A DNA stretch of 30,760 nt, from the IMG/VR virus record IMGVR_UViG_3300030101_002756, positions 1 to 30,760 of that record. One strand, written 5' to 3'. Position numbers and translations under genes: made by a program. Shown here in pieces: positions 3,080-21,329 of this stretch; position 1 is the stretch's first letter; every line of letters begins with the position of its first letter. The notes beneath the pieces are model-generated. The model saw only the letters and a program-made list of their open reading frames with translations. It did not search any database and was not told the origin of the DNA. This DNA is from a virus.

Positions 3080-3110
3080 AAAAAGTCGGTTTTATTACGC
3101 TTATATATAG

Positions 3111-3136: not shown

Positions 3137-3181
3137 AGCTCGAAAATCAAGTAATTATGTAATCCTTTATAAAGGAAATTT

Positions 3182-5866: not shown

Positions 5867-5891
5867 CTCTTTTAAAAATTAGGTGTGTTTA

Positions 5892-5902
5892 TAGTAAATA
5901 TA
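5892..5902 (-). promoter_or_regulatory. Candidate late promoter element, copy B
   Basis: TATATTTACTA on the minus strand, followed by TAAAC, in the short gap between the protease fusion and the coiled-coil gene. It is identical over 11 bases to the elements at 3069-3079 and 15735-15745. It would drive scaffold and capsid genes at a higher level than read-through from the tail genes. Confidence 0.42.
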
Positions 5903-5921
5903 ATATATAATGTTTTGTTAC

Positions 5922-7103: not shown

Positions 7104-8881
7104 TATATTGTAGCTTTTCTTCTTATTTTTTGTAATTTATCTTGTTGGTTTGTAATATCGTCTGATACAACAAATGCTTTCACAACACCTGTTGTCATAC
7201 CACCACTTCCTTCGTCCATAGTGCCGTCAAAACCTCTTCCACCACCTGCTTGATTGATTGCAGATAATAAAGGTTTGAACATCCTCGTGCTTTTTGCGTT
7301 TATTACGCTCTCACCTCTGCTTAATCTTGTGTTTACGCTATCACTTGTGCCACTACCTGTGCCACCTACCATACCTCCTGTTGCCATACCTGCAGAAGTA
7401 TTAGGTGGAGGTGTTGATGCAATTTTTTGAACACTTGCCATACCTGCTGTAACTGCAAGACCTGCTGCAATTGCACCAAGTGCTGGTCCAACTATTGGTA
7501 TAGCCGACATACTTGCGTATGCTGCAGTTGCCGACTTGTGTGTGTTTATTATCGTTTCTGCTATGGCTGCTGCCTTACCAATAGCACTTTCTTTACCTGC
7601 AATAGCACTTAATTGTCCTAATGCATTCATAGCAAGATCCTGTTTAGCTGTAGTAATTGTTTGTTCTAAATCAATTTTCTCTTGCGCATTTTTTTTGTCT
7701 TCCGCATCTTCTGCTGCATCAAATTTGTCTCTAATCTTTTTTCTTTTGACCATATGTTGACGAAGAATTTCTAACTGCAATATATTCTTCCTTTCTTCAG
7801 ATGCTTTAGACCTATCGACCTCTTCCATTTGCCTTTGCATCTTCAACTCTAATCCTTTTATTTCTCTATCTTCTGCATTCTCTATGCCTTCCAACAATAT
7901 CTCTTCTCTTATATCTCTGCCTTGTTTAGCTAATGCTAAATCTGCATTAAGCACCTCTAACCTTTTTTGTTTCTCTTCTTCTAATCTCGCTAAATTTTCT
8001 TGGTGTCTTGCTTCTCTTTTTGCTGCGGCTTCTGCTTCAATAGAGTTTATTTTATTATTTAACTCAATAGATTTTCCCAAACTTTCTCCACGAATATCTG
8101 CGAGTCTAATCTCCTTTTCTGCAAGGTCGTCAAGATCTTCTGCCATAGCTTCACCCATAGAAATTCGCTCTTTAGCAATTCGAACGTCCTCTTCTGCTGC
8201 TGCAACTCTTTTATTCATCAACTCTTGCTCAATTGCAAATGCATCTTGTGCAGCTTTCATTCTTTCTTGTTCTGTTTTTGTTACATCCTCTGCAATAAGT
8301 TTCAAACCCTCAATCTCTGCTCTTCTTTGTGCAGTTTCAACATTTATTTCTCTTGTAGTATCTCTTAACTTTTGTGTAGCTTTTTCTAACTCTACAGCTA
8401 AAGACACCTCTCTTGCTATTTCGTCACCAAGACCTGAAAATGTTTTTTTAGCAGCGTCTACTGCACCTGATAAATCTCCTTTGAATATGCTTATGTATAT
8501 TTCAGCATATGAACTTATTCTATCAACTATTACGCTAATTGCAGCACCTAATCCTTTGAATACTTGTGATAACTTGTCCGCACCTCTTTGTGTTTGCGTA
8601 AAATATGTTATTAAAGATCCTACAGCAACTACAATAGCACCTATACCTGTTGACATCAATCCTGCCTTGATTGTTGTAAACATAGATTTGGCTATTGGTA
8701 TAACCTTACCAAAACCTTTCGTAATACTATTTATGCTCACACCAAATACACTAAAATCTTTCGCAGCATCTAATGCAGCATTACCTGTTTCTTTAGTGTC
8801 TTTCTTTACTTTTTCTAATTTCTTTGTTGCGTCTTTAGTATCTGCAACAAGCTTCATTCTTACCGTTTCTTCTTGTGCCAT
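7103..8881 (-). CDS. Tail tape measure protein
   Basis: The 592-residue protein sets tail length and carries hydrophobic segments used during DNA ejection. It begins with charged helices (KLVADTKDATKKLEKVKKDT), then has a hydrophobic stretch around IGAIVVAVGSLITYF, a long charged coiled-coil centre (repeats rich in Glu, Lys, Arg and Ala, about residues 165-430), then a Gly/Ala-rich hydrophobic segment (IPIVGPALGAIAAGLAVTAG) and a Gly/Ser-rich tail. At roughly 1.5 angstrom per residue this implies a short tail, about 90 nm or less. It overlaps the small upstream gene by 22 bases. It is the last tail gene before the head genes, an unusual place. Confidence 0.8.
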   Translation of the reverse strand: MAQEETVRMKLVADTKDATKKLEKVKKDTKETGNAALDAAKDFSVFGVSINSITKGFGKVIPIAKSMFTTIKAGLMSTGIGAIVVAVGSLITYFTQTQRGADKLSQVFKGLGAAISVIVDRISSYAEIYISIFKGDLSGAVDAAKKTFSGLGDEIAREVSLAVELEKATQKLRDTTREINVETAQRRAEIEGLKLIAEDVTKTEQERMKAAQDAFAIEQELMNKRVAAAEEDVRIAKERISMGEAMAEDLDDLAEKEIRLADIRGESLGKSIELNNKINSIEAEAAAKREARHQENLARLEEEKQKRLEVLNADLALAKQGRDIREEILLEGIENAEDREIKGLELKMQRQMEEVDRSKASEERKNILQLEILRQHMVKRKKIRDKFDAAEDAEDKKNAQEKIDLEQTITTAKQDLAMNALGQLSAIAGKESAIGKAAAIAETIINTHKSATAAYASMSAIPIVGPALGAIAAGLAVTAGMASVQKIASTPPPNTSAGMATGGMVGGTGSGTSDSVNTRLSRGESVINAKSTRMFKPLLSAINQAGGGRGFDGTMDEGSGGMTTGVVKAFVVSDDITNQQDKLQKIRRKATI

Positions 8882-9015
8882 TTGCCTAAAATTATATCGT
8901 TATTCTTGGTTTTGACTTTAATCTCTGTAAAGTATTGTAATGTGCCTTTCATAGCCATAAAACTTGTATGAATTGCACCACCTACTAATCTCAATGTTGC
9001 TATTTTTTCGTTCAT
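8860..9015 (-). CDS. Small protein before the tape measure, unknown
   Basis: The product is 51 residues, MNEKIATLRLVGGAIHTSFM followed by a basic C-terminus ending WHKKKR. A longer frame opens at 9063, but the ATG at 9015 overlaps the fibre gene stop as TAATG, which is the usual coupling in this genome, so I prefer the short form. It overlaps the tape measure start by 22 bases. Nothing in it points to an enzyme. It could be a tape-measure chaperone or tail-tip component, by position only. Confidence 0.55.
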   Translation of the reverse strand: MNEKIATLRLVGGAIHTSFMAMKGTLQYFTEIKVKTKNNDIILGKWHKKKR

Positions 9016-9869
9016 TAACTTAATGTTGTTCTTAATTCGTTTATATATAATATAACAGTCCAATCTATAGTAACACTTCTTGCTCCTGTAACATCTACTG
9101 TAATGTAGTCAGGTGTTGCGCTTGTAGCAGAAAAGCCATTATTCCAACCTGTTGCATTGTCTGTATGTAGTGACTCGCTATCTTGCCCTAACTCTGTCAA
9201 AACACCATTGTTAACTCTGTATGAAACGTGCTCAAAATGAGAATAAGCACCTGTGCTATATGAACCATTACGAAAAGTTACAGCCTTACCTAAACACCTT
9301 GCTGAAAAAGAAATAATGCCCTCAAAATTTTCGTCAACTATAAACCTTTCATTATCTATTCCACCTATAAAAATTTCTTGTCTTGCTGTTCCATCTGTTG
9401 TTCTACCTTGATACATCAATACACTCCTTTGCGCTCTTGCTCTATTTCCTACAGACACAGATTGTTGGTGTGGTGTTTGTGCGTGAACATATTCACTATA
9501 CCTAATTGCGCTACCACCATTGCCAATTACTGTTGCAAAATCTGCTGTAACTTCGTGGTTAGTTCCTTGCGTTTGTGCGTTGTTAGCATTAACATTTGAC
9601 TTTGTAGAATATACCTTATTGTTTTTGCCTGTAACATTATTGTGTCCACCAACTACTAAATTTCCTGTATTTGCTTTTTCATTACCACTTTGTATAAAAC
9701 ATTTGTTGTTCTCAAAGTTGTAGCCGTATGCTCTGCAATCTTCTCTTGTTCCTGCTACACCTGTATCAGATCCGTCATCAAAAGTCACCAAGCCTGTATT
9801 TACATCAATATCTTTTACAGGTTTCGGTGTAGTGTCTTGTTGATTTTTATCTCTTCCTAATGTTCTCAT
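9015..9869 (-). CDS. Tail fibre / receptor-binding-like protein with beta-roll repeats
   Basis: This 284-residue protein has an N-terminal attachment-like region, then short repeats of Asn/Gly-rich turns (NLVVGGHNNVTGKNNKVYST, then SNVNANNAQTQGTNHEVTAD, then FATVIGNGGSAI). These resemble the left-handed beta-roll of YadA-type adhesin heads and of some phage fibres. The rest is a beta-rich domain with SVSVGNRARAQRSVLMYQ and a C-terminal strand set (ITVDVTGARSVTIDWTVILY). Such proteins are usually trimeric host-recognition fibres. It follows the large tail protein by two bases. The receptor is unknown. Confidence 0.6.
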   Translation of the reverse strand: MRTLGRDKNQQDTTPKPVKDIDVNTGLVTFDDGSDTGVAGTREDCRAYGYNFENNKCFIQSGNEKANTGNLVVGGHNNVTGKNNKVYSTKSNVNANNAQTQGTNHEVTADFATVIGNGGSAIRYSEYVHAQTPHQQSVSVGNRARAQRSVLMYQGRTTDGTARQEIFIGGIDNERFIVDENFEGIISFSARCLGKAVTFRNGSYSTGAYSHFEHVSYRVNNGVLTELGQDSESLHTDNATGWNNGFSATSATPDYITVDVTGARSVTIDWTVILYINELRTTLS

Positions 9870-9871
9870 TC

Positions 9872-12007
9872 TTATATTTTATACAATTCTACTGTAGCTA
9901 ATTTTCGACTATTAGCTGTATAATCTATTGAGTTGACTCTATACTCTTGATTGTCAATTCTTATTTTGTCTTTAAAACTAAATCTATTTATATCAGTTGG
10001 TTTTAAGTATATTCTAACTTTCAATAAGTGTGTTAAATTGACATATCTTTCAATAACATAATTTCTCCAATATTTCTCGTAGAAAGTTTTAAGAGGTAAG
10101 GCATTAACTTCGTGATAGAGAAACCCTACATTACCAAATAATAATGTGCTATCTGCTGTTGTTAAAACACCTGTGCTATCTTCGTAATGGTGAGAGGTCG
10201 AATACTCTGTAACTTGAGCACCGAAAACACCCTCATAAATATCTGTTTGGTCAAATATGGCAAAACCTGCATTGTGTGTATCGAAGTTTTTGAACATCAA
10301 TCTTGGTGCACTGTCAAACCTTTCGAAGTTTATGCCGTCTTCACTACTTGTTATGACAGACATACTTGCGTAGGAGGGGTGTGTCTTGACTAATGCTGTT
10401 GGCGCAAATACATCTAATCGTATCTCTTCTTCTACGTCTGTTTCTACATCAATAAAAACCTCTTGTATGCCGTATTCTTTACCTATTGTTCTTTCATAGT
10501 CTTTTAGGTAGTAGTCATCGTCATCTTCTACCATAGCAAAAGTCAATTTGCGTGGTAAATCAAACATTGTTTGTGTCATTTCGCTACGATCTATTTTGCG
10601 TGTCCAATCGTGCGTAACACCACCTGCTACATAATCGTCAAACGGCTCAATATTAAGTTTTTTTGGGTTGTCTTTATCAGGCTCTATAATTAGGTTAAAC
10701 ATTTTAGTCAGGTCGCTTATTAAATCTGCTAATTTGACCTCTCTTCTGTTGTGTTGAAATATGTAGCCACCGTCTGTTCTATTATTAGTGTAGAAATAGT
10801 ATTTAGATATAAAAGTAAAAGGTGGTGAAGTTCCAGGAACAACAAACGAAGCATCAATTGTGCAATTAGATCCACTTGCTCTTATTTCCCAATTACAGGT
10901 TTCACCACTATTTAAATACACCTCTGCAGTTTGAAACACATTGATAGTAGTTCCTGTAGGTATAGTTTGTTGACCTGCAAAAATCGGTGATGTGGGTGCG
11001 CTTGTTGCAGTAGAGTTATGCACTAAACGAAAATAAATAGTTCTATTAGATCCACTTGTATTCGCTATAGCTAAACTTATAACAGCAGTTACACTTAAAT
11101 TGTCTTCAGGTGCAGTATATATACCTGTTGAGGTATTATGCAAGCCGTTAACATCTTGTAACTCTGTATTGAAAATAACATCAGCAAAAGAGGTGCTTAT
11201 ACTTAAATTTCCGCTTGGTTTTACTTCTACATCACCGTATTCAGTCACATTGGAAAATTGGTTATTACAACCACTATCCATATATATATTTTTAAACTCT
11301 GTCGTATTAAAAAAAGTGCTGTCAAACTGATAACCTGCAAAATCAAATAACTTATCAATAACATATTTCAATTGTATACAAGGTGGTAAATTATATCTGC
11401 TATCTATGTCTAATACATCAGTAGCTATAGTATCGTAACCGATCATACCGTCATCTACTAAAGGATACATAACTGCTGTGCTTGTTCCTCCTGCTGATAG
11501 TGTAACTCCTGTTGTAGTATTAGAAGCCTGTATATTTGCTATTGTAAAGTCGTGTTCTATATCTTCAAAGTTAAGGTCAGCAATTGTGCTTTCACCAAGT
11601 GCGTCTAATAATCCTACTGAAGTGCTAAAAATTGTTACATTATATGTATATTCATTTTGTTTCTCGTTTATACTATTCAGGAACATTACACCGTCTAATA
11701 TTAACGAGCCGTCTTCATATACTTGAACTTCGCAAGATTTGTAAGGGTTGAAATCTTTAAGACTCGTATATTGAGTCCCTTTCATATCATATGTAAGATC
11801 GTATATGTGATTAAAAAACTTGTTATTCTTTTTAGTTGCAGGTATATCATAATCTTTAGAATATGTGCTATTCTTGCTGTTCGCTTCACGAATATTGTCT
11901 ACCTCATATCTGATGCCTAAATTCTCATCACCGAATAAATCTAATTCAACTTGCTCTGTGTGAGAATAAAGGGAAAGGTTATATTGTGCGTGTGCAACTA
12001 TTCTCAT
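9872..12007 (-). CDS. Large tail/baseplate-like protein
   Basis: At 711 residues this is the largest protein in the genome. The N-terminal segment holds a conserved block, REANSKNSTYSKDYDIPATK followed by NNKFFNHIYDLTYD, which I recognise from large tail-associated proteins of Bacteroidetes phages. The middle is beta-rich with many Thr and Ser, and the end (RIDNQEYRVNSIDYTANSRK) resembles the closing beta-domain of tail-tip or baseplate hub proteins. It starts by an ATGA overlap with the previous tail gene. Distal tail, baseplate hub and tail-associated adhesin are all possible. I see no lysozyme or peptidase motif. Confidence 0.6.
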   Translation of the reverse strand: MRIVAHAQYNLSLYSHTEQVELDLFGDENLGIRYEVDNIREANSKNSTYSKDYDIPATKKNNKFFNHIYDLTYDMKGTQYTSLKDFNPYKSCEVQVYEDGSLILDGVMFLNSINEKQNEYTYNVTIFSTSVGLLDALGESTIADLNFEDIEHDFTIANIQASNTTTGVTLSAGGTSTAVMYPLVDDGMIGYDTIATDVLDIDSRYNLPPCIQLKYVIDKLFDFAGYQFDSTFFNTTEFKNIYMDSGCNNQFSNVTEYGDVEVKPSGNLSISTSFADVIFNTELQDVNGLHNTSTGIYTAPEDNLSVTAVISLAIANTSGSNRTIYFRLVHNSTATSAPTSPIFAGQQTIPTGTTINVFQTAEVYLNSGETCNWEIRASGSNCTIDASFVVPGTSPPFTFISKYYFYTNNRTDGGYIFQHNRREVKLADLISDLTKMFNLIIEPDKDNPKKLNIEPFDDYVAGGVTHDWTRKIDRSEMTQTMFDLPRKLTFAMVEDDDDYYLKDYERTIGKEYGIQEVFIDVETDVEEEIRLDVFAPTALVKTHPSYASMSVITSSEDGINFERFDSAPRLMFKNFDTHNAGFAIFDQTDIYEGVFGAQVTEYSTSHHYEDSTGVLTTADSTLLFGNVGFLYHEVNALPLKTFYEKYWRNYVIERYVNLTHLLKVRIYLKPTDINRFSFKDKIRIDNQEYRVNSIDYTANSRKLATVELYKI

Positions 12008-13425
12008 AGTCTTTGTCTTGGTATATTATTAGACTTCTCTATCTGTATAACATATTGTTTCAAGCCGTCATTTGCTGTCGTTTGTCTCTGATATGTTTTC
12101 TCTGTAACAACAACAGGGTAAAATTTAGGTGCAGAAAATACAACTGCATCTACATCCCCAACTAAATCTTGTAAATAAACTTGTGGACTTGTAAATAAGC
12201 TTTCTAATGCTCTTGCTTCCTCTTCTGTTATATAATCTGTGTTTGCTTCTATAACTTGAACAGAGTTGCTTCTATAAACTTGCGAACCACCCTCAAAACT
12301 GCTTCTCTGTGCGTATAAGTATTGTTGATTCACCTCGTTTTGTTTCATTAAACCTCTTTCAGTATTGACTGTTTTGATTGACTTCTTTGTGAAATTGTAA
12401 TAGTCCCAAGCACCTAATTTATTCAAGAACGCAAGTCGTATAGTTTCAAAACCTTTGCAATCATTATCTTGTAATTCAAATGTGTATAGTGCAGTAGTGT
12501 TAGTACTCGTTGCACTTTGACCACGAACAGTATAATAGCTTGTTGCAGCAGGAATAGATGCTCCTGAATTTGTTAGGTTCTTTGGTCCAACACCTGCATA
12601 TAATAGTCCTTCTGCTATATCATCTGCATCACTATACGAAACACCTTGTGGCAGAGCACCACCTGTTGCTGAATTATTTAACAATGTGTGTGTTCCTTGT
12701 GAAACTCCTGCACTATTAAAGAATTCAAATTTTAATTTAAATATATTAGAAGTTTGTGTGCTATTATTCGATTTTCTGAATTCGCCATTAGGGAATGCTA
12801 TTGTGTGATAATCTACACTTCTTACTTTCCTTGTTATGCTTGGCAAAAAATCTGACCAAAAACGACCATTAGCATCTTTACAAGCGTAAAAGCTGTCATT
12901 GAAAAAGTCGCCACCTGTATCTTGTGATAAACAACCATTAAAAAAATTGTATGTCCCTATTAAAGTATAATTTTGTCCTGCGAAATTAGAAGATCCTATA
13001 GTGTAGTTTTCATAAACAACAACAGCTACTCTAATCATATTAGAATACTGTTTTGATAATTCATCTACAATGTGTATTGGGTATCTCTGCTGTGCATTTA
13101 ATGTGTTTGGTGTGGTTCCGTCAAATGTAGAAGTGCTACCATTAACTGCATAAATCTCTGTATCGGTTGTGCAGTAATCTTGAACAACATTAGCTACATC
13201 GAAATAAGCATAACCTGCTGAATTAGGTTTGACAGAAAATTTGTGAAACTCAGTTACTGTATTTCCTAAAATATCTTCAAAACCTGCAAATACTTCGAAT
13301 ATAAATTTGAAATTGTTGTAATTATATACTGTGCTGCTTGTTTCTCCTACTACAAATAAGGTTTCTTCATTTGCGTATGCAGGATGAAAAAAGTCACTTG
13401 GCTGTTGATATACTTGTAAACTCAT
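12004..13425 (-). CDS. Minor tail structural protein, unknown role
   Basis: The 473-residue product is beta-rich. It opens MSLQVYQQPSDFFHPAYANE and contains KFIFEVFAGFEDILGNTVTE and a conserved-looking end with QTTANDGLKQYVIQIEKSNN. I recall similar N-termini in tail proteins of flavobacterial phages, but no function is established to my knowledge. ATGA overlaps on both sides (13422-13425 and 12004-12007) lock it between the HK97-gp10-like gene and the large tail protein, so it is probably a tail-tip or tail-sheath-like structural component. Confidence 0.55.
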   Translation of the reverse strand: MSLQVYQQPSDFFHPAYANEETLFVVGETSSTVYNYNNFKFIFEVFAGFEDILGNTVTEFHKFSVKPNSAGYAYFDVANVVQDYCTTDTEIYAVNGSTSTFDGTTPNTLNAQQRYPIHIVDELSKQYSNMIRVAVVVYENYTIGSSNFAGQNYTLIGTYNFFNGCLSQDTGGDFFNDSFYACKDANGRFWSDFLPSITRKVRSVDYHTIAFPNGEFRKSNNSTQTSNIFKLKFEFFNSAGVSQGTHTLLNNSATGGALPQGVSYSDADDIAEGLLYAGVGPKNLTNSGASIPAATSYYTVRGQSATSTNTTALYTFELQDNDCKGFETIRLAFLNKLGAWDYYNFTKKSIKTVNTERGLMKQNEVNQQYLYAQRSSFEGGSQVYRSNSVQVIEANTDYITEEEARALESLFTSPQVYLQDLVGDVDAVVFSAPKFYPVVVTEKTYQRQTTANDGLKQYVIQIEKSNNIPRQRL

Positions 13426-13946
13426 CTTACTATGTCTGCTGTTGTTTGTCTTAAAAATTTAGCTACATCACTTGCGTATGCTTTTATGAAATCTTTCGGT
13501 AAATTTCTGTAGTGTTGTCTGAAAGCATTACTAAAATATCTTGTTGCAGGTAAACCATATAATGCTATACTCCTACCTATAACAAATGCTAAAGATTGTC
13601 TTTTAATAAATCTACCTTTCTTATCTCTTCCTTGTATTCCTTTGCGTTTTATCCACTCTTCGACAACACCCTCTTTTATGTTCTTACCTTTAAACTTGTA
13701 TGGTGACTTGTATGCCTTTCTACCACTTTTGCTTCCTTTTACACCTTTGTCTTGAAACATCCCATACTGTGGCATTTTGAAATTTAATTCTAATGCACCA
13801 CTTGGATATACTTCAAGATCGTAGTCAAGGTTTTGCGCTAACTTACCTGTGTTGACTTTATTTTGTTTTTCAAGGTTGCGAATAGATTGTTTTATAACCT
13901 TATTCGCAAATAGCTTCATTATTCTATGTGTCTTGTCAAGTTTCAT
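13422..13946 (-). CDS. HK97 gp10-like neck/tail completion protein
   Basis: The 174-residue protein is basic. A central block, ELNFKMPQYGMFQDKGVKGS followed by KSGRKAYKSPYKFKG, resembles the YG.f.d.Gvkg pattern of HK97-gp10-type connector and tail-completion proteins. N-terminal helices precede it (IMKLFANKVIKQSIRNLEKQ). Such proteins join the head to the tail tube. The start overlaps the preceding stop (TAATG) and its own stop overlaps the next start (ATGA), which places it in the tail module although it is a head-tail junction type. Confidence 0.6.
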   Translation of the reverse strand: MKLDKTHRIMKLFANKVIKQSIRNLEKQNKVNTGKLAQNLDYDLEVYPSGALELNFKMPQYGMFQDKGVKGSKSGRKAYKSPYKFKGKNIKEGVVEEWIKRKGIQGRDKKGRFIKRQSLAFVIGRSIALYGLPATRYFSNAFRQHYRNLPKDFIKAYASDVAKFLRQTTADIVR

Positions 13947-14407
13947 TAAACTGATGCTGTAACTAACTCTATGTCTGTTTCGTTAGCTGATGTAGTCACA
14001 TAAATACTATCTACTACACTTGTTAAAGGTTGTGTTGTAATAGCACCACCTGTTGCATTACCTTCAATCTTGTCATCAAATAAAACAATAGAAGCACCTG
14101 CAATTAAGTTTAATGCTACTGCATCATTCCCTGCACTATTTATGCTTACTGTTACAGGGTTTGTATCATCTAAATTCGTTATGCGAATATACCTTACATC
14201 ATCACTATCGTGTGCTGATCCTGCAGGACTTGCTGCTGCTGTATACACAGCGTGGTTTCCACTTGCTGCTAACTGCATAACTCGAACGCTATATTGAGCA
14301 ATACTCGCTATGCTGTTCGTAGTAGTTTTATCATAAGTTATTCCGTTCAATGTAATGTTTTCTACTACATCTACCTGTAAAGTTGCTGTTGTTACTGTTG
14401 TTGCCAT
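13946..14407 (-). CDS. Small structural protein, beta-rich
   Basis: The product is 153 residues and rich in Thr, Val, Ala and Asn. The segment DDVRYIRITNLDDTNPVTVS and the later GASIVLFDDKIEGN resemble a small beta-sandwich seen in virion proteins of Bacteroidetes phages. There are no catalytic residues to point to. Upstream sequence is pure A/T (AATAAATAAATAAAATG). It lies 17 bases after the tail-completion-like gene and overlaps the next gene by TAATG. The role within the tail is inference from position. Confidence 0.55.
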   Translation of the reverse strand: MATTVTTATLQVDVVENITLNGITYDKTTTNSIASIAQYSVRVMQLAASGNHAVYTAAASPAGSAHDSDDVRYIRITNLDDTNPVTVSINSAGNDAVALNLIAGASIVLFDDKIEGNATGGAITTQPLTSVVDSIYVTTSANETDIELVTASV

Positions 14408-14424
14408 TTTATTTATTTATTATA

Positions 14425-14961
14425 TTATATTAAACCTGTGCACGCACCTCTTCCGAAGCTTACTGTGATTGTGAAGTTTGCTGCCCAACCTGATACCTGA
14501 CTATCAAAACGCTCTGTAAAAGGCTCACAAGTTACATCGTCAGATACTCTGAAGCCGTACTCTAAATCAAAATCCTGCACATTTGTTAGTGATGACTTAT
14601 CACCGTGTCGTAAAACAGAAAGGTAGTCGCCAACTATTTGTAATGTATCACTTAATACATCATTCTCGTTAGACACATTACGGTATTCTTCTTTACTTTT
14701 ATTTATGCTAACTAAATCCATAACATATAATCTGAAATCATATTGTAACTCGTTTATTTGATAATTTGCGCTTTCTAAAGTTAGAAAGGCAACAGGAAAA
14801 ATTTGGTTTGTGCTTATATCTAAATCAAATATATCACCAAAACCACCTTGATAAATTGAATCTAAATCGTGCACTATGTAATCGTGTAACTGAATAATGT
14901 TTTGTAGTGTAACATTCTTCTGTAATTTGTTGTTGTTTGCCGTGTGTATAAAGTCACTCAT
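14425..14961 (-). CDS. Tail completion/terminator-like protein, uncertain
   Basis: This 178-residue protein has the pattern NVSNENDVLSDTLQIVGDYL, then CEPFTERFDSQVSGWAANFT and a final beta strand TITVSFGRG. I recall it from a conserved family in Bacteroidetes phages next to the tail chaperone, of unproven function. Its predicted mix of a long helix and terminal strands would suit a tail terminator or neck protein. Its ATG at 14961 overlaps the stop of the -1-frame extension of the preceding gene (TAATG). That overlap is independent support that the extension is translated. Confidence 0.55.
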   Translation of the reverse strand: MSDFIHTANNNKLQKNVTLQNIIQLHDYIVHDLDSIYQGGFGDIFDLDISTNQIFPVAFLTLESANYQINELQYDFRLYVMDLVSINKSKEEYRNVSNENDVLSDTLQIVGDYLSVLRHGDKSSLTNVQDFDLEYGFRVSDDVTCEPFTERFDSQVSGWAANFTITVSFGRGACTGLI

Positions 14962-15266
14962 TATTGTATCGTTTCTAAATCTTTGCTATAACACAGGAAG
15001 GTTAAAACCTCATCTGCAGTTAAATTTAATATGTCATTTATTTTTGTAATATCACCGTCAGCTAAATTATATATCACTCCGTACCAACCCCACTTTTTGC
15101 TGAATTGTTGTTTGGTATCTCGATAGTCGACCTCCTCTTCCTGCTCTTCAAATAAGATTGCAAAATTATCAGATACTCCTGACCTATGTTCAAAAAAAAA
15201 GCTGCTGCACCATTCACAGTTGCTATGCTTAATTTGTCTTGAAACAACTTTGCATTCTGTAATGAA
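14961..15266 (-). CDS. -1-frame extension of the tail assembly chaperone (no own start codon)
   Basis: In the -1 frame relative to the gene at 15074-15715, an open frame of 101 codons runs from 15266 to a TAA at 14961. It has no ATG or GTG, but its product reads FEEQEEEVDYRDTKQQFSKK, then WGWYGVIYNLADGDITKIND, a compact and well-formed sequence. I recall a KWGWY..i..La.gd pattern at the C-terminus of tail proteins in related phages. The stop overlaps the next start as TAATG. Entry is probably by -1 frameshifting, either at a homopolymer T TTT TTT site (within 15192-15200) or nearer the overlap end at A AAA AGT (about 15092-15098). A sequencing indel in a single gene is the alternative. Confidence 0.6.
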   Translation of the reverse strand, partial: FITECKVVSRQIKHSNCEWCSSFFFEHRSGVSDNFAILFEEQEEEVDYRDTKQQFSKKWGWYGVIYNLADGDITKINDILNLTADEVLTFLCYSKDLETIQ

Positions 15267-15715
15267 TTAACACTATCATAAGGCACAATATCATAACCTT
15301 TCTTTTTCAAGTTGTTTATAGGTCTGTATAATACACCCATTATTTTGTGCAAATTTTCTAAAGGGTTTTCAAGATAATTGTCGAGATCTACAAATTCAGC
15401 AAATGTCATCTCTTTTAAATTAGGATGAAACCCATAATCAACATCGTCTATTGTTATTACCAAATTCAATGTTTCGTTTATTTTCGTTGTTGCAAGCTTC
15501 TCTAATGCATTTACAATTTCGTTAACATCACTTGCTTTGCATTTTTCAAGAACTTCGTGCTCCACACCTACAATTGCGTTTATAGCATTCATATTGCTCG
15601 TATGTTTTTCTAAATCTCCTGCGGTGTTTAGCATAAATTTTTGATAGCTTCCTAACTTAACCTGTGTCCACTTTTCAGGTATTACATATTCTTTTTTTCC
15701 GAGTGTTAATAACAT
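15074..15715 (-). CDS. Tail assembly chaperone-like protein (zero-frame product)
   Basis: The 213-residue product begins MLLTLGKKEYVIPEKWTQVK and contains NLKEMTFAEFVDLDNYLENP followed by LENLHKIMGVLYRP. These blocks I know from a conserved protein of Bacteroidetes phage tail modules placed where tail assembly chaperones are expected. Chaperones of this kind coat the tape measure before tail tube polymerisation and commonly come as a short form and a frameshifted long form. Its last 39 codons overlap an open -1 frame that encodes a plausible extension. It is the first gene after a 101-base gap carrying a TATATTTACTA element 19 bases upstream, so it probably opens the tail transcript. Confidence 0.6.
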   Translation of the reverse strand: MLLTLGKKEYVIPEKWTQVKLGSYQKFMLNTAGDLEKHTSNMNAINAIVGVEHEVLEKCKASDVNEIVNALEKLATTKINETLNLVITIDDVDYGFHPNLKEMTFAEFVDLDNYLENPLENLHKIMGVLYRPINNLKKKGYDIVPYDSVNSLQNAKLFQDKLSIATVNGAAAFFLNIGQEYLIILQSYLKSRKRRSTIEIPNNNSAKSGVGTE

Positions 15716-15734
15716 TTTCTTGTAGGTTATCTAT

Positions 15735-15745
15735 TAGTAAATATA
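15735..15745 (-). promoter_or_regulatory. Candidate late promoter element, copy C
   Basis: TATATTTACTA on the minus strand in the gap between terminase large subunit and the tail chaperone gene, 19 bases from the ATG at 15715. Identical to the elements at 3069-3079 and 5892-5902. The first half of the gap (15746-15816) shows no strong terminator. Confidence 0.42.
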
Positions 15746-15816
15746 AATTGTTTAGATTTGGTGCGTATTTGCTTTATAGAAGAGGGTAGTCATTTCATTG
15801 TTTAGGCTGCTCTCTT

Positions 15817-17130
15817 TTATTGTATATAGTATTTGCCGATGTTTGGTTTCAATTCGTAAAACATTCGCATCATCAATGCATCTGCGTAGTCAGGTGACCT
15901 ACCTAATACCTGTTTAACTTTTTCTTTAGGAAGTATAGCAAGCTTCGTGTCTTTATCAATCTTGTCTCTTCTAACTTGTTCTAACTCTTTTGTAAGATCG
16001 TCTTTTATTAGCGTATTGTTTGTTTGCAAATATAGTTTACCTGCATTTATATACTCTGCTAATTTGTAATAACATTGTGTTTTGAGGTTTTGGTAGTTCT
16101 CATTGTTTATTACTTTGCCGTTATTCACGAACCCTTTGCAGCGCAATATATCTCTAACACCACCACCAACACCGTCATCATCAACAATAATATTTCCAAG
16201 TTTGACGGATTCTGTTTGTTGTAATTCTCGTATTTCATTTGCAGCTTCTGTTATTGTGTTTGTGTCTAATACCTTTATTTTCTCTGCTCGCAAACCATTC
16301 CAATATATAATTACTGTTTTGTCTTTACCGAAACGAGCAATATCAGCACTTATATATTTATCACCTGTTTGTGTCGTTGTGTTGTCATACATATTTAAGA
16401 TAGCATTGTATTCAATCAACTTGTCTTCACTATCGTCATATTCCCAATTGCCGTATAACAATCTCTGTTTGCTAATTTCGTCAAGCTTCTGTAATTGTGT
16501 TTCGTAGTGTTTTGATATATGCACATTGTCGCTCGCAAGTGCTTGTATGAACTTCCTGTGTTTTGGTAATACACCTTGTTTGTTTGGTAGATAGAATTCG
16601 TTATACACCCAATTCTTTGCAGGGTTACAACTCATAAACAATTTCGGTATGAGTTTATATTCGTCTAACTTGTATCTTATTCTTGAAGAAAGAATTGCTT
16701 TAGCTTTTTGTGTAATCTGATTGCACTCGTCAATAAAAGCCATAGTAAGTTCCAAACTACCGAGACTATCATAATTAGCATCAGAAGGATAATGGAACAG
16801 ATCTTTAAGCATAACCTGTGAGCCATTGAAGAAAGTAATAATGTTAGACGCTCCGTTAAATTCATAGTCTTTATTTGCTCGTAGTCCCCAAGATTTGCAT
16901 ATCTCGAAGAAAGTATTGAGGGTTGTTTTCTTTAGGTTGTCAAGCTTGCTTCTTCCTATTAAACACCTAATACCTTTATAGCGTATGCAAGAGTAGATAA
17001 TCCAAGCACAACCAATATAAGATTTGCCACCACCTGCACCCCCACCAAATAATACCTCGCTTGTTTCATTATCGAATAGGTGTTTAATTGCTGTGCTTTG
17101 TTTAGGAGTAAATTCTAACTCAATCTTCAT
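15817..17130 (-). CDS. terL: Terminase large subunit (ATPase and nuclease)
   Basis: The 437-residue motor packages DNA into the prohead and cuts concatemers. The N-terminal ATPase has a Walker A at residues 30-37 (GGAGGGKS) and a Walker B at 130-135 (MAFIDE). A coupling-type SCNP motif is at 167-170. The C-terminal RNase H-like nuclease shows the expected acidic residues: D263 (YISADIARFGKD), D317-D319 (IIVDDDGVGGG) and D414/D417 (SPDYADALMM). All key residues are present and the length is normal. The ATG at 17130 overlaps the small subunit by 11 bases. Headful versus site-specific cutting cannot be read with certainty from this sequence. Confidence 0.95.
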   Translation of the reverse strand: MKIELEFTPKQSTAIKHLFDNETSEVLFGGGAGGGKSYIGCAWIIYSCIRYKGIRCLIGRSKLDNLKKTTLNTFFEICKSWGLRANKDYEFNGASNIITFFNGSQVMLKDLFHYPSDANYDSLGSLELTMAFIDECNQITQKAKAILSSRIRYKLDEYKLIPKLFMSCNPAKNWVYNEFYLPNKQGVLPKHRKFIQALASDNVHISKHYETQLQKLDEISKQRLLYGNWEYDDSEDKLIEYNAILNMYDNTTTQTGDKYISADIARFGKDKTVIIYWNGLRAEKIKVLDTNTITEAANEIRELQQTESVKLGNIIVDDDGVGGGVRDILRCKGFVNNGKVINNENYQNLKTQCYYKLAEYINAGKLYLQTNNTLIKDDLTKELEQVRRDKIDKDTKLAILPKEKVKQVLGRSPDYADALMMRMFYELKPNIGKYYIQ

Positions 17131-17470
17131 CAGTTAGTTTAATGTTAATTTGGATAGGCTCGTCATCTGTTGTCATATCCATTTGTTGCTTCTCCCAATA
17201 ACCTCGTTTCTTTCCTTTTGTTTTCAAATAGAATATAGTTGCAGTAACATTGTTGTCTGACATTTGCTCGAATAGTTTGCTCTCTGCAAAATCTAAACTT
17301 ACATTTTCAATATCTCTAACAGCCGTTGCGAACTCGCTATCTTCTTTCAACCATTTATAGAATGTGCTGCGTGGTATATTAGTTTTCTTACAAGCCGTTG
17401 TAACAACTCCTAAACTTTGCTCTAATGCCTTTAGCATTGCTTCCTTTTTTATGTGTCTACTTTTGTCCAT
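17120..17470 (-). CDS. terS: Terminase small subunit
   Basis: The 116-residue protein recognises phage DNA for packaging. It has an N-terminal helix-turn-helix (VVTTACKKTNIPRSTFYKWL) followed by helices with DIENVSLDFAESKLFEQMSD and a conserved TATIFYLKTKGKKRGYWEK block typical of this terminase small subunit group. The C-terminal tail is acidic. The start at 17470 overlaps the stop of the P-loop DNA kinase gene (TAATG), so packaging and the DNA-modification cassette are translationally linked. Confidence 0.88.
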   Translation of the reverse strand: MDKSRHIKKEAMLKALEQSLGVVTTACKKTNIPRSTFYKWLKEDSEFATAVRDIENVSLDFAESKLFEQMSDNNVTATIFYLKTKGKKRGYWEKQQMDMTTDDEPIQINIKLTDED

Positions 17471-17979
17471 TACTTGATAAGTTGTATAATGTGTTTTAAT
17501 GCTGCATTGTGTTCTTCTTGTGTGTCGTTATTTAGTATTGTAACACTATTGTTTTGCAGTATGTTTTGTATTTTGGTTTTCTTCGACTTCTTGAATTGCT
17601 CTGATTGACTGTCGTTACGCTTTTTGTGTCTTGCTTCTTTTGTTTCATCTGTTGTTTGTATTACGATCTTCTCGCAATTTACTTTATCAAACAAACTTTG
17701 ATTGAATAGCCTATCACCCTCAAATAATATAGTTGCTCCTGTTTTATTTGTAAAATTTATAAAGTCAGGTTGCACTGCCATACTTAATTTGTCTGTGCCA
17801 CTAAAAGTGCTATTATCGTATATGCCTATTATATACAGGTTTCTTTCTGCATTGTATAAGGCTCTAACAAGTCCGTAACGAACAGTCTTGAATGGTAATA
17901 GCTTTTTTATAAGCTTTCGCATTATTGTTGTCTTGCCACTTGCAGGCTCTCCACCTATTGCTATAATTCTGTTAGCCAT
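17470..17979 (-). CDS. P-loop kinase resembling 5-hydroxymethyluracil DNA kinase
   Basis: The 169-residue protein has a Walker A at residues 10-17 (GEPASGKT). Downstream are YIIGIYDNSTFSGTDKLSMA and ATILFEGDRLFN (about 82-93). The G.Y...fsGTD.LSMAvqP and EGDRLfN signatures are those I associate with phage kinases that phosphorylate 5-hydroxymethyluracil in DNA (HMUDK), the step that activates the base for amine attachment. It is short, with a Lys-rich region at 135-155. It overlaps the transferase-like gene by 19 bases and the terminase small subunit by one. A general nucleotide kinase is the alternative, but the company it keeps favours DNA modification. Confidence 0.72.
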   Translation of the reverse strand: MANRIIAIGGEPASGKTTIMRKLIKKLLPFKTVRYGLVRALYNAERNLYIIGIYDNSTFSGTDKLSMAVQPDFINFTNKTGATILFEGDRLFNQSLFDKVNCEKIVIQTTDETKEARHKKRNDSQSEQFKKSKKTKIQNILQNNSVTILNNDTQEEHNAALKHIIQLIK

Positions 17980-18833
17980 TTCTTATTATATGTTTCTTCT
18001 CTAAATTGCCACAACACGCTCCAATCAACACCCTCTGTTACGCTGCTCTGCATTTTCTCTATTTCTTTCTTTTGCCTTTCTATGTAATAACCTACATACC
18101 TCTTTCCTTTCTTGAATTTCTTATATGCACATAGCGTTGTTTCAATATTCCAAATGTTTGTGTGCTCTATGTTCATACCTTTTATCTCGTTCTTTAACTC
18201 TTTGAACTTATATTGCAGGTATGCTATATGTTTAGGTTGTAACCTTTTGTCGTTGCCGTGCGTATCTAATTCATATCTCCCCAAGTGATACACAAGTCCG
18301 TTTCTACAGCTTTCTGCATTTTTCAGATCCAAATATGTAGGCTCAAAATCGTAGCCTGTTAAAACATAAACCATTTCGAGATAAATAAACATAGTAAATC
18401 TGCCGAAGTTTTTAATTTGTGATAGGTTCTCATAGCAGTTATCATATGTCATTTGTTTTGTAGGCTGTTTGAGTGATTGGAAATAGTCATTTTGTGTCCT
18501 GTTTCCTATTAGGTTTTTATAGCTTACAAATGTTTCTACAAATTTATCTTGCGTCTTTACTCGTAGACGATCGGTTTGAAATAGTGTTTTGTGCTTGTTT
18601 GCTTCCCACCACCTTTGCAGTCTTGCTGTGTCTACATTTTCGTAGTCAGGGAATTCATTATACACATAATATACCATTGTTGCCGAGTAGCAAGTGCCGA
18701 ATAAAAATGCAAGCCAATAGCGTTGCTCAATATTTAATTCGAACCTATTCGCTACATATCGTAAACAATCGTTGCTCGGATCTATGTCTTTTGCTCTTGA
18801 ACTTAATATGTGATAGGTTATGTAGTCCACCAA
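17961..18833 (-). CDS. Putative amino-acid:DNA transferase (aGPT-Pplase/ADDT-like)
   Basis: The 290-residue, mostly helical protein has conserved-looking blocks: YWLAFLFGTCYSATMVYYVY then NEFPD (39-63), FQTDR (85-89), IKNFGRFTMFIYLEM (140-154), DLKNAESCRNGLVYHLG (169-185), LCAYKK (234-239) and RYVGYYIERQKKEIEKM (245-261). I recall the same order in the alpha-glutamyl/putrescinyl thymine pyrophosphorylase families described by Iyer and colleagues. Members were later shown to transfer amino acids onto phosphorylated 5-hydroxymethyluracil in DNA. The direct neighbour is a kinase of the type that would supply that substrate. Which clade it belongs to and which amino acid it uses cannot be read from sequence alone. 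Confidence 0.65.
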   Translation of the reverse strand: MVDYITYHILSSRAKDIDPSNDCLRYVANRFELNIEQRYWLAFLFGTCYSATMVYYVYNEFPDYENVDTARLQRWWEANKHKTLFQTDRLRVKTQDKFVETFVSYKNLIGNRTQNDYFQSLKQPTKQMTYDNCYENLSQIKNFGRFTMFIYLEMVYVLTGYDFEPTYLDLKNAESCRNGLVYHLGRYELDTHGNDKRLQPKHIAYLQYKFKELKNEIKGMNIEHTNIWNIETTLCAYKKFKKGKRYVGYYIERQKKEIEKMQSSVTEGVDWSVLWQFREETYNKKWLTEL

Positions 18834-19219
18834 ATGTTTTGTTTAACTCCTGACTTCGTTTGTGTCTTTCCTGCTAATGTCATTCCCATAGCTTCGTAGA
18901 ACTTATTTCCTACCTCATTATCTAAATTACATTTCAACATTAGAGGTTTTGGCAGGTATTCAAATAGCTTTCTTCCTACACCTTTTTGTTTGCTATCATT
19001 ATCTACTGCTATTTCATATAATACATATGCGTTGTATTTCTTCGAATAGCCGTATCTCATAAAACCACCGTTATCAATAACAACATATTTGTATTTGTTT
19101 TTGTTTATGTAATCGTCCCATATCCAAAACAGGTTAAAACCTCCTATGTGTTTCTTGTGTTGCTTGTGTAACTTTTTTATAAAGTCTTCGTCTTGTTTTA
19201 CTGCTGCTCTAACTTTCAT
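18818..19219 (-). CDS. GNAT-family N-acyltransferase
   Basis: The 133-residue protein has the GNAT core: strand 4 and the acetyl-CoA loop YEIAVDNDSKQKGVGRKLFE (68-87, with the K.KGVG turn at 77-82), then LKCNLDNEVGNKFYEAMGM (95-113), the C-terminal helix that packs on acyl-CoA. GNAT enzymes acylate primary amines. Overlaps of 11 bases with the amidotransferase and 16 with the DNA-transferase-like gene place it inside the hypermodification cassette. I infer that it may acylate an amine installed on the DNA base. A free nucleotide, polyamine or protein substrate is possible. Confidence 0.75.
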   Translation of the reverse strand: MKVRAAVKQDEDFIKKLHKQHKKHIGGFNLFWIWDDYINKNKYKYVVIDNGGFMRYGYSKKYNAYVLYEIAVDNDSKQKGVGRKLFEYLPKPLMLKCNLDNEVGNKFYEAMGMTLAGKTQTKSGVKQNIWWTT

Positions 19220-19820
19220 AAACTACATTAGTAAATAGTTGTTTTGGCTTGAAGTCCTTATTTGTTCTCTTGAATATATCTTCTGTTGAAGCGTAGAAAT
19301 GTGCTTCTTTATATTCTAATCTCCACAAAGGTCTGTTCGTATTTCTAACTGCATACATTTTATTATCTTCTGTCAACATCAATCCTGCAAAAGATCCTTT
19401 TGTGCTTGTAACGAATTCTCTTAATAACTTTATATCTTTTCCACACTTCAACAATACTATCTCACCGTCATTGTCGGTTTCCATTTGTATATTGTAATGC
19501 TCTTCCATTTCAGCTTTTGTTCTCATATCCAAAACACCATTGAATACTAATGCAGCATATTGTTTCGTTATAGGTTGATTGTTTCTATGCTCAATATAAT
19601 CGCCACTCGTTGAATATCTATTGTGAAATATAATCTTGTTTGACTTTGGTATTGTAAGTTCCTCTAAATTGTGGTATTTGCGTGTTACGAGTTCTTTATC
19701 GTAATATGTATAGCCGAAGCTATGCAAACCTCTAATTTTACTTTCTCTTAATAATCCTTGCAATATCTCATAGTGTTCTTCTATTGGATTATTGCTACTA
19801 TAACCTACTACACCACACAT
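19209..19820 (-). CDS. Class II glutamine amidotransferase domain protein
   Basis: The 203-residue Ntn-hydrolase-type domain starts MCGVVGYSS with Cys2 as the expected nucleophile after removal of Met1. Other landmarks fit the PurF/GlmS/AsnB glutaminase fold: RGLHSFGY (30-37), HNRYSTSGD (66-74), NQP (81-83), FNGVLD (93-98) and an acidic D117..E120. No synthetase or ammonia-using partner domain is fused to it, so released ammonia must be used by another protein. It sits between the JBP/TET-like dioxygenase (TGATG overlap) and the GNAT gene. Stand-alone class II amidotransferases are reported in phage base-modification loci, so I read it as a tailoring enzyme. Confidence 0.8.
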   Translation of the reverse strand: MCGVVGYSSNNPIEEHYEILQGLLRESKIRGLHSFGYTYYDKELVTRKYHNLEELTIPKSNKIIFHNRYSTSGDYIEHRNNQPITKQYAALVFNGVLDMRTKAEMEEHYNIQMETDNDGEIVLLKCGKDIKLLREFVTSTKGSFAGLMLTEDNKMYAVRNTNRPLWRLEYKEAHFYASTEDIFKRTNKDFKPKQLFTNVVYES

Positions 19821-20713
19821 CAGGTCAAGCTATCTCCAAGTTGTCTGTGTTTCGCTTTATCGACTTCTTCGTCTGCCGATCCACAATGTATCATATTCTT
19901 TCTGTAATACATCACTAAACTAATTCTTGTTGCGTCATCGTCAATTTTATTTATTGGTGTATTGCCGTGCCACTCGTGAACATTCACTAACAACAGGTCG
20001 CAATTCTGAACATCAAATGCTACACCCCATTTTGGCAACACAAAATAACCACCTGTATATTTACCTTTGCGTAATACTACAAGGTTTCCAAACCCTTTCT
20101 CAAAATCTCCTTTGTCTGTATGAACTGCTGTTTGCCAATTCTTGTTTACAGTTACTGTAGTAAATGCAGTATTTTTGATCACGAAATCTTGTGAAGTATT
20201 ATCAGCTTCATCTCTTTGTAACTTGTAGTGTTCAGGAACTAATTCTGCATACTTTGTGTCAACAAACTTTATAATTGGATAGGCTTGTTTGAACTTATTG
20301 AATTGTTTCTCGTTAAATGCAGTTTGTCTGCAATAAGGGAAACGAGCGTTGCGGTCAAAATAACCTATAATACCACTATTGACCATACCTGCGTGGTTTG
20401 TATTAGATAGTTTGCCGTCTTTCCTTACTGCGTATTGCGTTGCTTTTCCGTTCTCTTTCAATCCTGCACTTGCACCTCTGTTTGTTGATGCAACAGATAC
20501 TGTTTTTAAGTTTTCGTATGCAGCTTGTGCTATATTGCTCGGTATAATTTTCTTCCTAAACTTCGCTAACACCTTTCCTGTTTCTTCGCAATATACATCA
20601 GCATCATAAGTAATAAGTGTGTTGTAATCGTTATCACTTAACAATTGGCCTGCAAGATCTTTTGCAGCTTCGTCACTCATTCGTGGCTTGAATGTATGTT
20701 TTTTAATTTCCAT
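19820..20713 (-). CDS. JBP/TET-family Fe(II)/2-oxoglutarate DNA base dioxygenase
   Basis: The 297-residue enzyme carries all elements of the TET/JBP double-stranded beta-helix: TVNKNWQTAVHTDKGDFEKG with H198 and D200 as iron ligands, then FGNLVVLRKGKYTGGYFVLP, the distal His in VNVHEWHGNTPI (H249, or H246) and R263 in ATRISLVMYYR for 2-oxoglutarate. The V.KN..TA.H.D.GDF..GFGNL signature is the JBP-like style that hydroxylates thymine in kinetoplastids, as opposed to the form most familiar from vertebrate TET. An N-terminal region (residues 1-120) precedes the core. It overlaps the ParB-like gene by 11 bases. Predicted activity: oxidation of thymine (or 5-methylcytosine) in DNA to the 5-hydroxymethyl base. 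Confidence 0.85.
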   Translation of the reverse strand: MEIKKHTFKPRMSDEAAKDLAGQLLSDNDYNTLITYDADVYCEETGKVLAKFRKKIIPSNIAQAAYENLKTVSVASTNRGASAGLKENGKATQYAVRKDGKLSNTNHAGMVNSGIIGYFDRNARFPYCRQTAFNEKQFNKFKQAYPIIKFVDTKYAELVPEHYKLQRDEADNTSQDFVIKNTAFTTVTVNKNWQTAVHTDKGDFEKGFGNLVVLRKGKYTGGYFVLPKWGVAFDVQNCDLLLVNVHEWHGNTPINKIDDDATRISLVMYYRKNMIHCGSADEEVDKAKHRQLGDSLT

Positions 20714-21329
20714 AAATATCGGTGTATGCCTTTTTCATAACCTCGTATACTGTGTCAGTTAGGTTATCTGTTTTATACTCTTCACGAAGCTTCAATTCCC
20801 ATTCTTTGAATTGTGGCTCTGTCTGTGTATTCATAAATAACTGCACCATTTTTACGTGGCTTCCTTCCATTTCATCAACAGGGAAATCATAATCACCTGT
20901 GTCTTCTATCTCGCTATCGAATGAAGTATCTTCCCATTTAGGTATATCAAGTCCCCACTCTTTCAATGCGTCAACATTCCACTCGTTAGCTAACACATCC
21001 CAATCCCATTCACCAAAACTGCTATTGTCTTTAATAACTATTTCTTGGCAAACCTCTTCGTAAGTTTTTTTGTTGCCTGACTTCTCGTGCTCTTCTTTTG
21101 TGTATTGTATAATAGGCACTTCAGAAATACCTGCACGAACACAGGCTTGGTATCTCATATTACCACCTAATATCATCATATCTTCATCAACAATAATAGG
21201 TCTCATTTCTAACATTTGTGGTAGATCTTCTACACTTCGTATAAGTTTTTTGAATTTATAATCCTTTATAACTCTTGGATTATTTGGGTTTAGCTTTATG
21301 CTATTTCTTTTGACAACTTTAGCTTTCAT
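20703..21329 (-). CDS. ParB-like domain protein, first gene of the modification cassette
   Basis: The 208-residue protein has an N-terminal ParB/sulfiredoxin-like domain: IKLNPNNPRVIKDYKF (11-26), MRPIIVDEDMMILGGNMRYQ (42-61) and ACVRAGISEVPIIQ. The C-terminal half is acidic, with EWDWDVLANEWNVDALKEWG and a helical end. Phage ParB-like proteins of this form often sit beside DNA methylases or base-modifying enzymes, and ParB domains are recurrent neighbours of TET/JBP genes. It may target the modification enzymes to DNA or act as a CTP/ATP-dependent DNA-binding factor. Partitioning is unlikely because there is no ParA. Confidence 0.75.
   Translation of the reverse strand: MKAKVVKRNSIKLNPNNPRVIKDYKFKKLIRSVEDLPQMLEMRPIIVDEDMMILGGNMRYQACVRAGISEVPIIQYTKEEHEKSGNKKTYEEVCQEIVIKDNSSFGEWDWDVLANEWNVDALKEWGLDIPKWEDTSFDSEIEDTGDYDFPVDEMEGSHVKMVQLFMNTQTEPQFKEWELKLREEYKTDNLTDTVYEVMKKAYTDIYGN

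Follow-up and report, generated by a model that had tools for sequence, protein, structure and literature searches.

Pseudomonas phage PaMx11 makes 5-AcNmdU by glycine transfer, a flavin lyase and acetylation; its genes encode the PUGT glycinyltransferase gp46, the flavin-dependent lyase gp47, the acetyltransferase gp48, the kinase gp49 and the thymidylate synthase-like protein gp51. The locus described here, located in the 30,760-base IMG/VR virus record of a small marine phage, analyzed over its whole length (the window), resembles PaMx11 in its kinase superfamily, its kind of acetyltransferase (gp48) and its transferase fold (Z 19.0). In contrast, the PUGT-type transferase and flavin lyase of PaMx11 are both lacking from the window, which carries a class II glutamine amidotransferase (GAT) and a ViI-like transferase of the ADDT family. 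The hydroxymethyl group is supplied by a thymidylate-synthase-type enzyme in PaMx11, whereas in the window the predicted source is a TET dioxygenase acting in DNA. The closest isolated-phage relatives of the window's ADDT are found in ViI and other Ackermannviridae phages (about 28% identity, with FGR, ESxRNG and ETxxC motifs common to both), but these phages have no GAT or TET beside the ADDT. Base-J-like TET-TAGT glycosyltransferase loci are also comparable: five related contigs open the slot with the same ParB-TET pair, and a glycosyltransferase takes the place of the kinase and transferase. Rhodococcus phage Tonitrus shares the logic and order of the window's cassette (ParB, TET, transferase, kinase) but has no GAT or GNAT; its transferase belongs to a PUGT-like clade, and function is only predicted there too (PMC11955845). 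The CmoX/CmoY carboxymethylcytosine system provides a published precedent, in which a glutamine amidase domain is linked to the use of ammonia for modifying phage DNA; glutamine-derived ammonia is likewise proposed to aminate a phage DNA base, but this system differs in acting on the carboxyl of a modified cytosine and in having a fused amidase domain and an unrelated transferase (PMC12783734).

The cassette occupies positions 17470-21329 on the minus strand, as do all features given below, and consists of six overlapping ORFs that encode, in transcription order, a ParB-like protein, a TET/JBP dioxygenase, the GAT, a GNAT, the ADDT and a P-loop kinase, with successive overlaps of 11, 1, 11, 16 and 19 bases. 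A sequence-only reading had proposed these coordinates, strand, order and overlaps of 1-19 bases, all of which matched the ORF calls, and its six family assignments all held when compared with Pfam, PHROG and fold matches. The terminase small subunit gene (TerS; 17120-17470, phrog_309, 5e-10) lies directly downstream and ends the slot. The terminase large subunit (TerL; 15817-17130) was most similar to that of Flavobacterium phage 11b (55% identity), followed by Cellulophaga, Bacteroides and Polaribacter phages, which supports the earlier guess of a Bacteroidetes-type host. No exact terminal repeat was found in the 30,760 bases, hence whole-genome status is unproven. Dozens of further viral contigs share this gene order, at approximately 50-80% protein identity to the window's cassette, and this recurrence excludes a chance origin. 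A DNA-level search of isolated phages gave short TET matches only.

Analysis of the first gene (20703-21329, 208 aa) revealed PHROG matches to phrog_17622 (4e-20) and phrog_620 (3e-18) and a ParB_N score of 21.7 bits, which is below the Pfam cut-off. Almost every relative has this ParB-N-like gene upstream of TET, as do phage Tonitrus and Pelagibacter phage HTVC112P; its product may partner TET in DNA binding or targeting. The TET/JBP Fe(II)/2-oxoglutarate dioxygenase (19820-20713, 297 aa) matched Tet_JBP well above the cut-off (PF12851, E = 9e-29; 100.2 bits versus 34.9). Its iron triad H198/D200/H249 and 2OG-binding R263, previously read as intact, were borne out as invariant in 19 homologues, and its sequence predicts hydroxylation of the thymine methyl group in DNA.

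The P-loop kinase (17470-17979, 169 aa) matched phrog_800 (E = 6e-12), and matches to AAA_18 and Ploopntkinase3 in Pfam were both below the cut-off. An AF2 model (pLDDT 93.5; Walker A GGEPASGKTT) retrieved NMP/nucleoside-kinase-type folds by Foldseek (E about 4e-4), and comparison of the sequence with the PDB gave P-loop matches only, mainly RecA. The family HMM linked the kinase to Cr30 gp114 (4e-38), the Tonitrus 5hmU kinase (2e-13) and PaMx11 gp49 (2e-5). The earlier assignment to the P-loop kinases stands on phrog_800, the Walker A motif and the nucleoside-kinase-type fold; kinship to phage 5hmdU kinases is suggested by the HMM matches, but Ploopntkinase3 fell below its cut-off. From sequence and model, the protein is predicted to be a 5-hydroxymethyl-dU DNA kinase. 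TET and a kinase of the same family also occur with an HhaI-like cytosine methylase in Methylophilales phage Melnitz, and action on cytosine is possible elsewhere.

The 290-residue ADDT-family transferase (17961-18833, TTG start), a member of a GAT-linked clade, passed the cut-off for PF18724 (E = 4e-19; 69.6 bits versus 26.2) and scored barely above that for aGPT-Pplase3. Searching the PDB with the sequence alone gave spurious matches only, but alignment and fold searches worked. The AF2 model (pLDDT 90.7) matched PUGT structures 8z2m and 8z2n by Foldseek, and VIA-align superimposed it on 8z2m, the PaMx11 5-PmdU glycinyltransferase, with Z 19.0 and an rmsd of 3.2 over 247 residues; DUF2419 (Z 9.7) and DNA glycosylases came next. 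The absence of other folds from the fold searches was given no weight as evidence. The PF18724 and PUGT fold matches uphold the earlier aGPT-Pplase/ADDT-like label, and sequence and model together predict a reaction in which an amine displaces the 5-phosphomethyl-dU phosphate. The window's ADDT clade is nearer the ViI-like Ackermannviridae transferases, so an amino-acid donor is possible; the ViI-like enzymes use serine.

The stand-alone GAT (Ntn, PurF-like; 19209-19820, 203 aa) passed the Pfam cut-off for GATase_7 (E = 3.5e-7). A single-sequence search found no relatives, but an alignment-based search succeeded. The Cys2 of the sequence-only reading was confirmed as invariant in 12 homologues and then in 15 more diverse ones, in which the other glutamine-hydrolysis residues, Arg68, Asn94-Gly95 and Asp118, were also invariant. 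The nearest solved structures were PurF amidophosphoribosyltransferases, with which the GAT aligns; a weak match to TIGR03442 (EgtC) was also detected. In PurF chemistry, ammonia displaces a pyrophosphate. The GAT has no fused synthase domain, and no amidoligase match was detected among the window proteins scanned, which rejected a GAT and amidoligase pairing of the type seen in Arthrobacter phages. The GAT is predicted to be the ammonia source for the cassette, and its linkage to ADDT suggests that ammonia, not an amino acid, is the donor used by ADDT. No GAT-ADDT fusion was found, so it is gene linkage that points to this hand-over.

The GNAT acetyltransferase (18818-19219, 133 aa), which is optional in the cassette, passed the cut-off for Acetyltransf_7 (E = 4e-6). 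Among 50,697 phage records, its only matches were to PaMx11-group acetyltransferases and two uncultured-phage records, and its closest named phage relatives are acetyltransferases that adjoin the flavin lyase in PaMx11-group phages. The family HMM matched PaMx11 gp48 (1e-10), with 27% identity, which is modest for a very large superfamily. The GNAT and the kinase are the window families that link to PaMx11 proteins by HMM, and the GNAT is predicted to acetylate a 5-aminomethyl group.

To compare what lies between TET and the packaging genes, we examined 115 distinct viral contigs. This slot held GAT-(GNAT)-ADDT-kinase in 88 contigs; in 18 it held a kinase and a PaMx11-type glycinyltransferase, with flavin lyase as an optional third gene, and in 5 a glycosyltransferase without kinase; none of the 115 mixed GAT and ADDT with the PUGT-type transferase. 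The ADDT always adjoined the GAT or sat one gene away, and the sole GAT-less ADDT of the clade and the sole ADDT-less GAT were both truncated by contig ends. Searches begun from GAT or from ADDT revealed the same linkage, even where TET was divergent or placed after the kinase, and in the very divergent loci L153 and L154. The GNAT was found only alongside GAT-ADDT and was cleanly absent from L029 compared with L011. In near-identical phages (93-96% DNA identity; pairs L009/L032 and L051/L047), the transferase modules replaced each other exactly from the TET stop to the kinase start, with TET and kinase unchanged. The exchanged module corresponds to PaMx11 gp46 (8z2m, 1e-7) and the flavin-dependent lyase (8z2o, 6e-7), so that the gp46-gp47 pair is one module variant among the window's relatives. 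Trees required 6-7 switches from one transferase module to the other, and 5 changes in GNAT. The role of the GAT, its strict pairing with ADDTs of this clade and the module swapping are new relative to the sequence-only reading; the gene set may have been mentioned before.

With confidence evenly balanced, we read the locus as a post-replicative thymine-hypermodification cassette. TET would convert thymine in phage DNA to 5-hydroxymethyluracil, the kinase would phosphorylate the hydroxyl to give 5-phosphomethyl-dU, and the ADDT, with its DNA-glycosylase-like fold, would put an amine in place of the phosphate. For this clade the most likely amine would be ammonia from glutamine, supplied by the adjoining PurF-like GAT to give 5-aminomethyl-dU (5-NmdU), which the GNAT would convert to 5-acetylaminomethyl-dU, the PaMx11 end product reached by another route; DNA modified in this way would be protected from host nucleases. 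We infer all four of the thymine substrate, ammonia nucleophile, acetylated product and protection. Slightly short of an even chance, we also propose that GAT and ADDT together act as a glutamine-dependent aminase of DNA bases with PurF-like chemistry, which would attach ammonia directly to 5-phosphomethyl-dU and yield 5-NmdU in one step without glycine transfer or a flavin lyase, and that phages switch routes by clean module replacement between a constant TET and kinase.

A route that is the same as far as 5-phosphomethyl-dU, after which ADDT adds an entire amino acid, be it glutamine, glutamate, serine or glycine, the GAT works on that added group either as an Ntn-type amidase or by donating an amide, and the GNAT caps the remaining amine, is unlikely but survives best among the alternatives. 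The ADDT family comprises amino acid:DNA transferases, the nearest isolated-phage relatives are of the ViI/Vibrio type at 28% identity, and class II GAT folds include gamma-glutamyl-bond hydrolases, to which the weak EgtC match points. However, the nearest structures to the GAT are PurF and not EgtC, its PurF-type hydrolysis residues are invariant, the unit is without the ATP-dependent synthetase that amidation needs, and the GNAT resembles one adjoining a lyase whose product carries an aminomethyl group.

Sequence and models give good support for thymine as the target, through homology with the 5-PmdU enzymes of PaMx11 and because neither a thymidylate-synthase-type gene nor a C5-cytosine methylase was detected in the window; this part of the earlier claim of thymine hypermodification was supported, while the modified base itself is one that we infer. 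A thymidylate-synthase-type source of hydroxymethyl-dU was rejected, since neither the window nor 18 relatives gave a PF00303 match, as was base-J-like glycosylation in the window, where no TAGT match was found. It is improbable that TET instead oxidises host- or phage-made 5-methylcytosine, with the kinase and transferase acting on 5hmC. Characterised phage TETs do act on 5mC, Melnitz phages have the HhaI-like methylase beside TET and this kinase, and a C5-methylase match above cut-off was present in 3 of 19 family records, but none was detected at E<=0.001 in the window or in 14 of 18 relatives, and the transferase, the lyase and the acetyltransferase are related to 5-PmdU/thymidine enzymes that can be exchanged while TET and kinase stay the same.

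Slightly more improbable is a hypermodified thymine serving mainly packaging or gene timing. The cassette adjoins TerS, which shares its conservation (among relatives the median identity of TerS is about 55%, compared with approximately 20% for TerL and about 20-30% for TerL and portal), and ParB-like proteins travel with TET; however, the known thymine hypermodifications stop many restriction enzymes from cutting (PMC6449724), and frequent chemical switching is more readily expected from an arms race than from a constant role in packaging. Very improbable is an ordinary TET, kinase and transferase cassette with GAT and GNAT as loosely associated accessories of unrelated function, since the GAT is never without ADDT, nor this clade's ADDT without GAT, save at contig ends and including divergent L153 and L154, although a ParB-TET-aGPT-Pplase2-kinase cassette is reported in Tonitrus (PMC11955845).

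If true, the proposed glutamine-dependent route would be a new way to place an amine on a DNA base, with ammonia drawn from glutamine. The phage group keeps the predicted activation steps of TET and kinase and swaps the finishing chemistry, as predicted modules for an amine, a glycine-derived amine or a sugar. The compact enzyme sets may be usable for programmable DNA modification, and matched phage pairs would allow each modification to be tested against host defences, making the swapped modules a natural experiment in the ways that viruses alter their DNA chemistry.

The six overlapping minus-strand ORFs that the sequence-only reading had placed at 17470-21329 were recovered at the same positions, with overlaps of 11, 1, 11, 16 and 19 bases. 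In transcription order they encode a ParB-like protein, a TET/JBP enzyme (TET), a class II glutamine amidotransferase (GAT), a GNAT, an amino acid:DNA transferase family member (ADDT) and a P-loop kinase. Pfam and PHROG searches supported these families; the assignments of ParB and the kinase rest on PHROG matches, since both scored below the cut-off in Pfam. The catalytic site of TET was intact as described, with iron and 2-oxoglutarate residues invariant in 19 homologues. GAT was closest to PurF, and its Cys2 (nucleophile), Arg68, Asn94-Gly95 and Asp118 were invariant across 15 diverse homologues; from a PurF alignment and what is established for PurF, we take these to be the residues of PurF-type glutamine hydrolysis. 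No exact repeat was found at the ends of the 30.8-kb IMG/VR virus record. A Bacteroidetes host, as suggested earlier, is likely because the large terminase subunit (TerL) is closest to that of Flavobacterium phage 11b (55%), followed by Cellulophaga, Bacteroides and Polaribacter phages. The cassette is well supported as real and conserved, with a predicted function in DNA hypermodification.

An AlphaFold2 model of the 290-aa ADDT (17961-18833, minus strand; pLDDT 90.7) matched the solved structure of PUGT, the PaMx11 gp46 glycinyltransferase (substrate 5-phosphomethyl-dU, taken from the title of structure 8z2m), by Foldseek (E = 0.002, probability 1.00), with no further confident match. VIA-align gave Z 19.0 for PUGT (rmsd 3.2, 247 residues); next came DUF2419, an enzyme of queuine salvage, at 9.7 and DNA glycosylases at 8.5 or lower. 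The modelled fold is PUGT-like, and the kinship to amino acid:DNA transferases is as the first assignment had anticipated; the sequence is nearer the ViI/Ackermannviridae type. The kinase model (pLDDT 93.5) displayed a nucleotide/nucleoside-kinase fold, and its family profile matched Caulobacter phage Cr30 gp114, Methylophilales phage Melnitz, the Tonitrus 5hmU kinase and PaMx11 gp49. Annotations of PHROG 800, PaMx11 gp49 and Cr30 gp114 label this family 'terminase small subunit'. These proteins (17470-17979 in the window; PaMx11 gp49; Cr30 gp114) are P-loop kinases; in the window, the terminase small subunit (TerS) is encoded separately, by the next gene (17120-17470). Among 50,697 phage records, the sole matches to GNAT were PaMx11/Ab18-group acetyltransferases, whose genes immediately follow that of the flavin lyase, and a single locus present in two records of uncultured phages.

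Compared with PaMx11, the cassette has a PaMx11-like acetyltransferase (GNAT), but carries GAT-ADDT in place of the glycinyltransferase-lyase pair (gp46-gp47). In PaMx11, glycine transfer, a flavin lyase and acetylation reportedly lead to 5-acetylaminomethyl-dU, in the account of Lee et al. This replacement, together with the PaMx11-like GNAT, suggests by analogy that GAT-ADDT, like the pair, would give 5-aminomethyl-dU, most simply with glutamine-derived ammonia. In PurF, ammonia displaces pyrophosphate, the same kind of displacement as proposed here. For the ammonia step and the product, both specific proposals, the chances are about evenly balanced. A published study (PMC12783734) proposed the use of ammonia from glutamine by a cluster of phage DNA-modifying enzymes that includes an amidase domain. 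The hydroxymethyl group probably comes from TET, because a search revealed no thymidylate-synthase-type enzyme. Thymine is favoured over cytosine as the target, given the PaMx11-type relatives and because neither the window nor most relatives yielded a match to a C5-methylase. In Melnitz (L004, 4010-8090), an HhaI-like C5-cytosine methylase, TET, a 427-aa protein and a member of the cassette's kinase family lie one after another, which may represent a hydroxymethylcytosine kinase route. By analogy with known thymine hypermodifications (PMC6449724), the modification would protect the DNA against host nucleases.

A TET protein search yielded 80 viral contigs, in which the slot between TET and TerS was compared. 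The slot held GAT-GNAT-ADDT-kinase, GAT-ADDT-kinase, a PUGT-like transferase (240 aa) with a flavin protein (262 aa) and kinase, the PUGT-like transferase and kinase without the flavin protein, or a TET-associated glycosyltransferase without kinase. Among solved structures, the 240-aa protein matched PUGT (8z2m, 1e-7) and a second amino acid:DNA transferase (25qc, 6e-13); the 262-aa protein matched the flavin-dependent lyases 8z2o and 8z79, and also PaMx11 gp47. If the lyase-lacking set (L067-L069) is active, the glycyl-methyl group would remain on the base. In L079-L084, kinase and transferase are replaced by a TET-associated or other glycosyltransferase after TET, a predicted base-J-like alternative for the same slot.

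GAT-first and ADDT-first searches brought the final count to 115 distinct viral contigs. GAT and ADDT were present in 88 (GNAT also in 66 of these) and the PUGT-like transferase in 18 (flavin lyase in 15); none of the 115 combined GAT-ADDT with the PUGT-like transferase, and GNAT never accompanied the PUGT-like set. The other nine comprised five glycosyltransferase loci, three with modules truncated by contig ends (L026, L190, L193) and one that stops inside TET (L082). GAT-ADDT linkage was kept despite highly divergent TET (L137-L143), where TET comes after the kinase (L148-L150, L152), in L203, where a non-orthologous P-loop kinase apparently substitutes, and in the MAG contigs L153 and L154, where no nearby TET was detected. 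The kinase, like the central module, may be replaceable, since in L203 a different P-loop ATPase/kinase-like gene (3107-3622) precedes GAT-ADDT-TET and the usual kinase was not detected. Of the MAG contigs, L153 (Sulfuricaulis bin, 7409-9925) has GAT-ADDT followed by an amidoligase-like ORF, and L154 (Prevotella bin, 5851-11115) has ParB-ParB-GAT-ADDT-kinase-GNAT followed by a radical SAM-like ORF, both ORFs judged by eye.

Cassette and TerS may travel together, because TerS (17120-17470) is conserved along with the cassette in relatives (~55% median identity), whereas TerL and neighbouring head genes (9872-17130) show only ~20-30%. Maximum-likelihood trees, in which many branches are weakly supported, revealed at least 7 (TET) and at least 6 (kinase) switches between GAT-ADDT and PUGT-like modules, and 5 changes in GNAT presence; for the PUGT-like plus lyase group, starred branches alone require at least 5 and at least 3 changes, respectively. 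At the DNA level, L009 and L032 share 93% identity until 5 bases beyond the TET stop and 96% identity from 14 bases ahead of the kinase start; the modules enclosed are unrelated. L051 versus L047 displayed the same pattern, and GNAT was cleanly absent from L029 in comparison with L011. TET-kinase-transferase cassettes have been predicted before, Rhodococcus phage Tonitrus (PMC11955845) being one case, and thymidine hypermodification has been discussed for marine pelagiphages (PMC9599517). A literature search, with the main specialist papers outside its scope, found no description of a GAT-linked ADDT unit or base-pair-level module exchange, and priority for both is unproven. The DNA-level swaps in near-identical pairs provide direct evidence, at the level of sequence, that TET and the kinase are shared steps and that the central module sets the predicted final chemistry.
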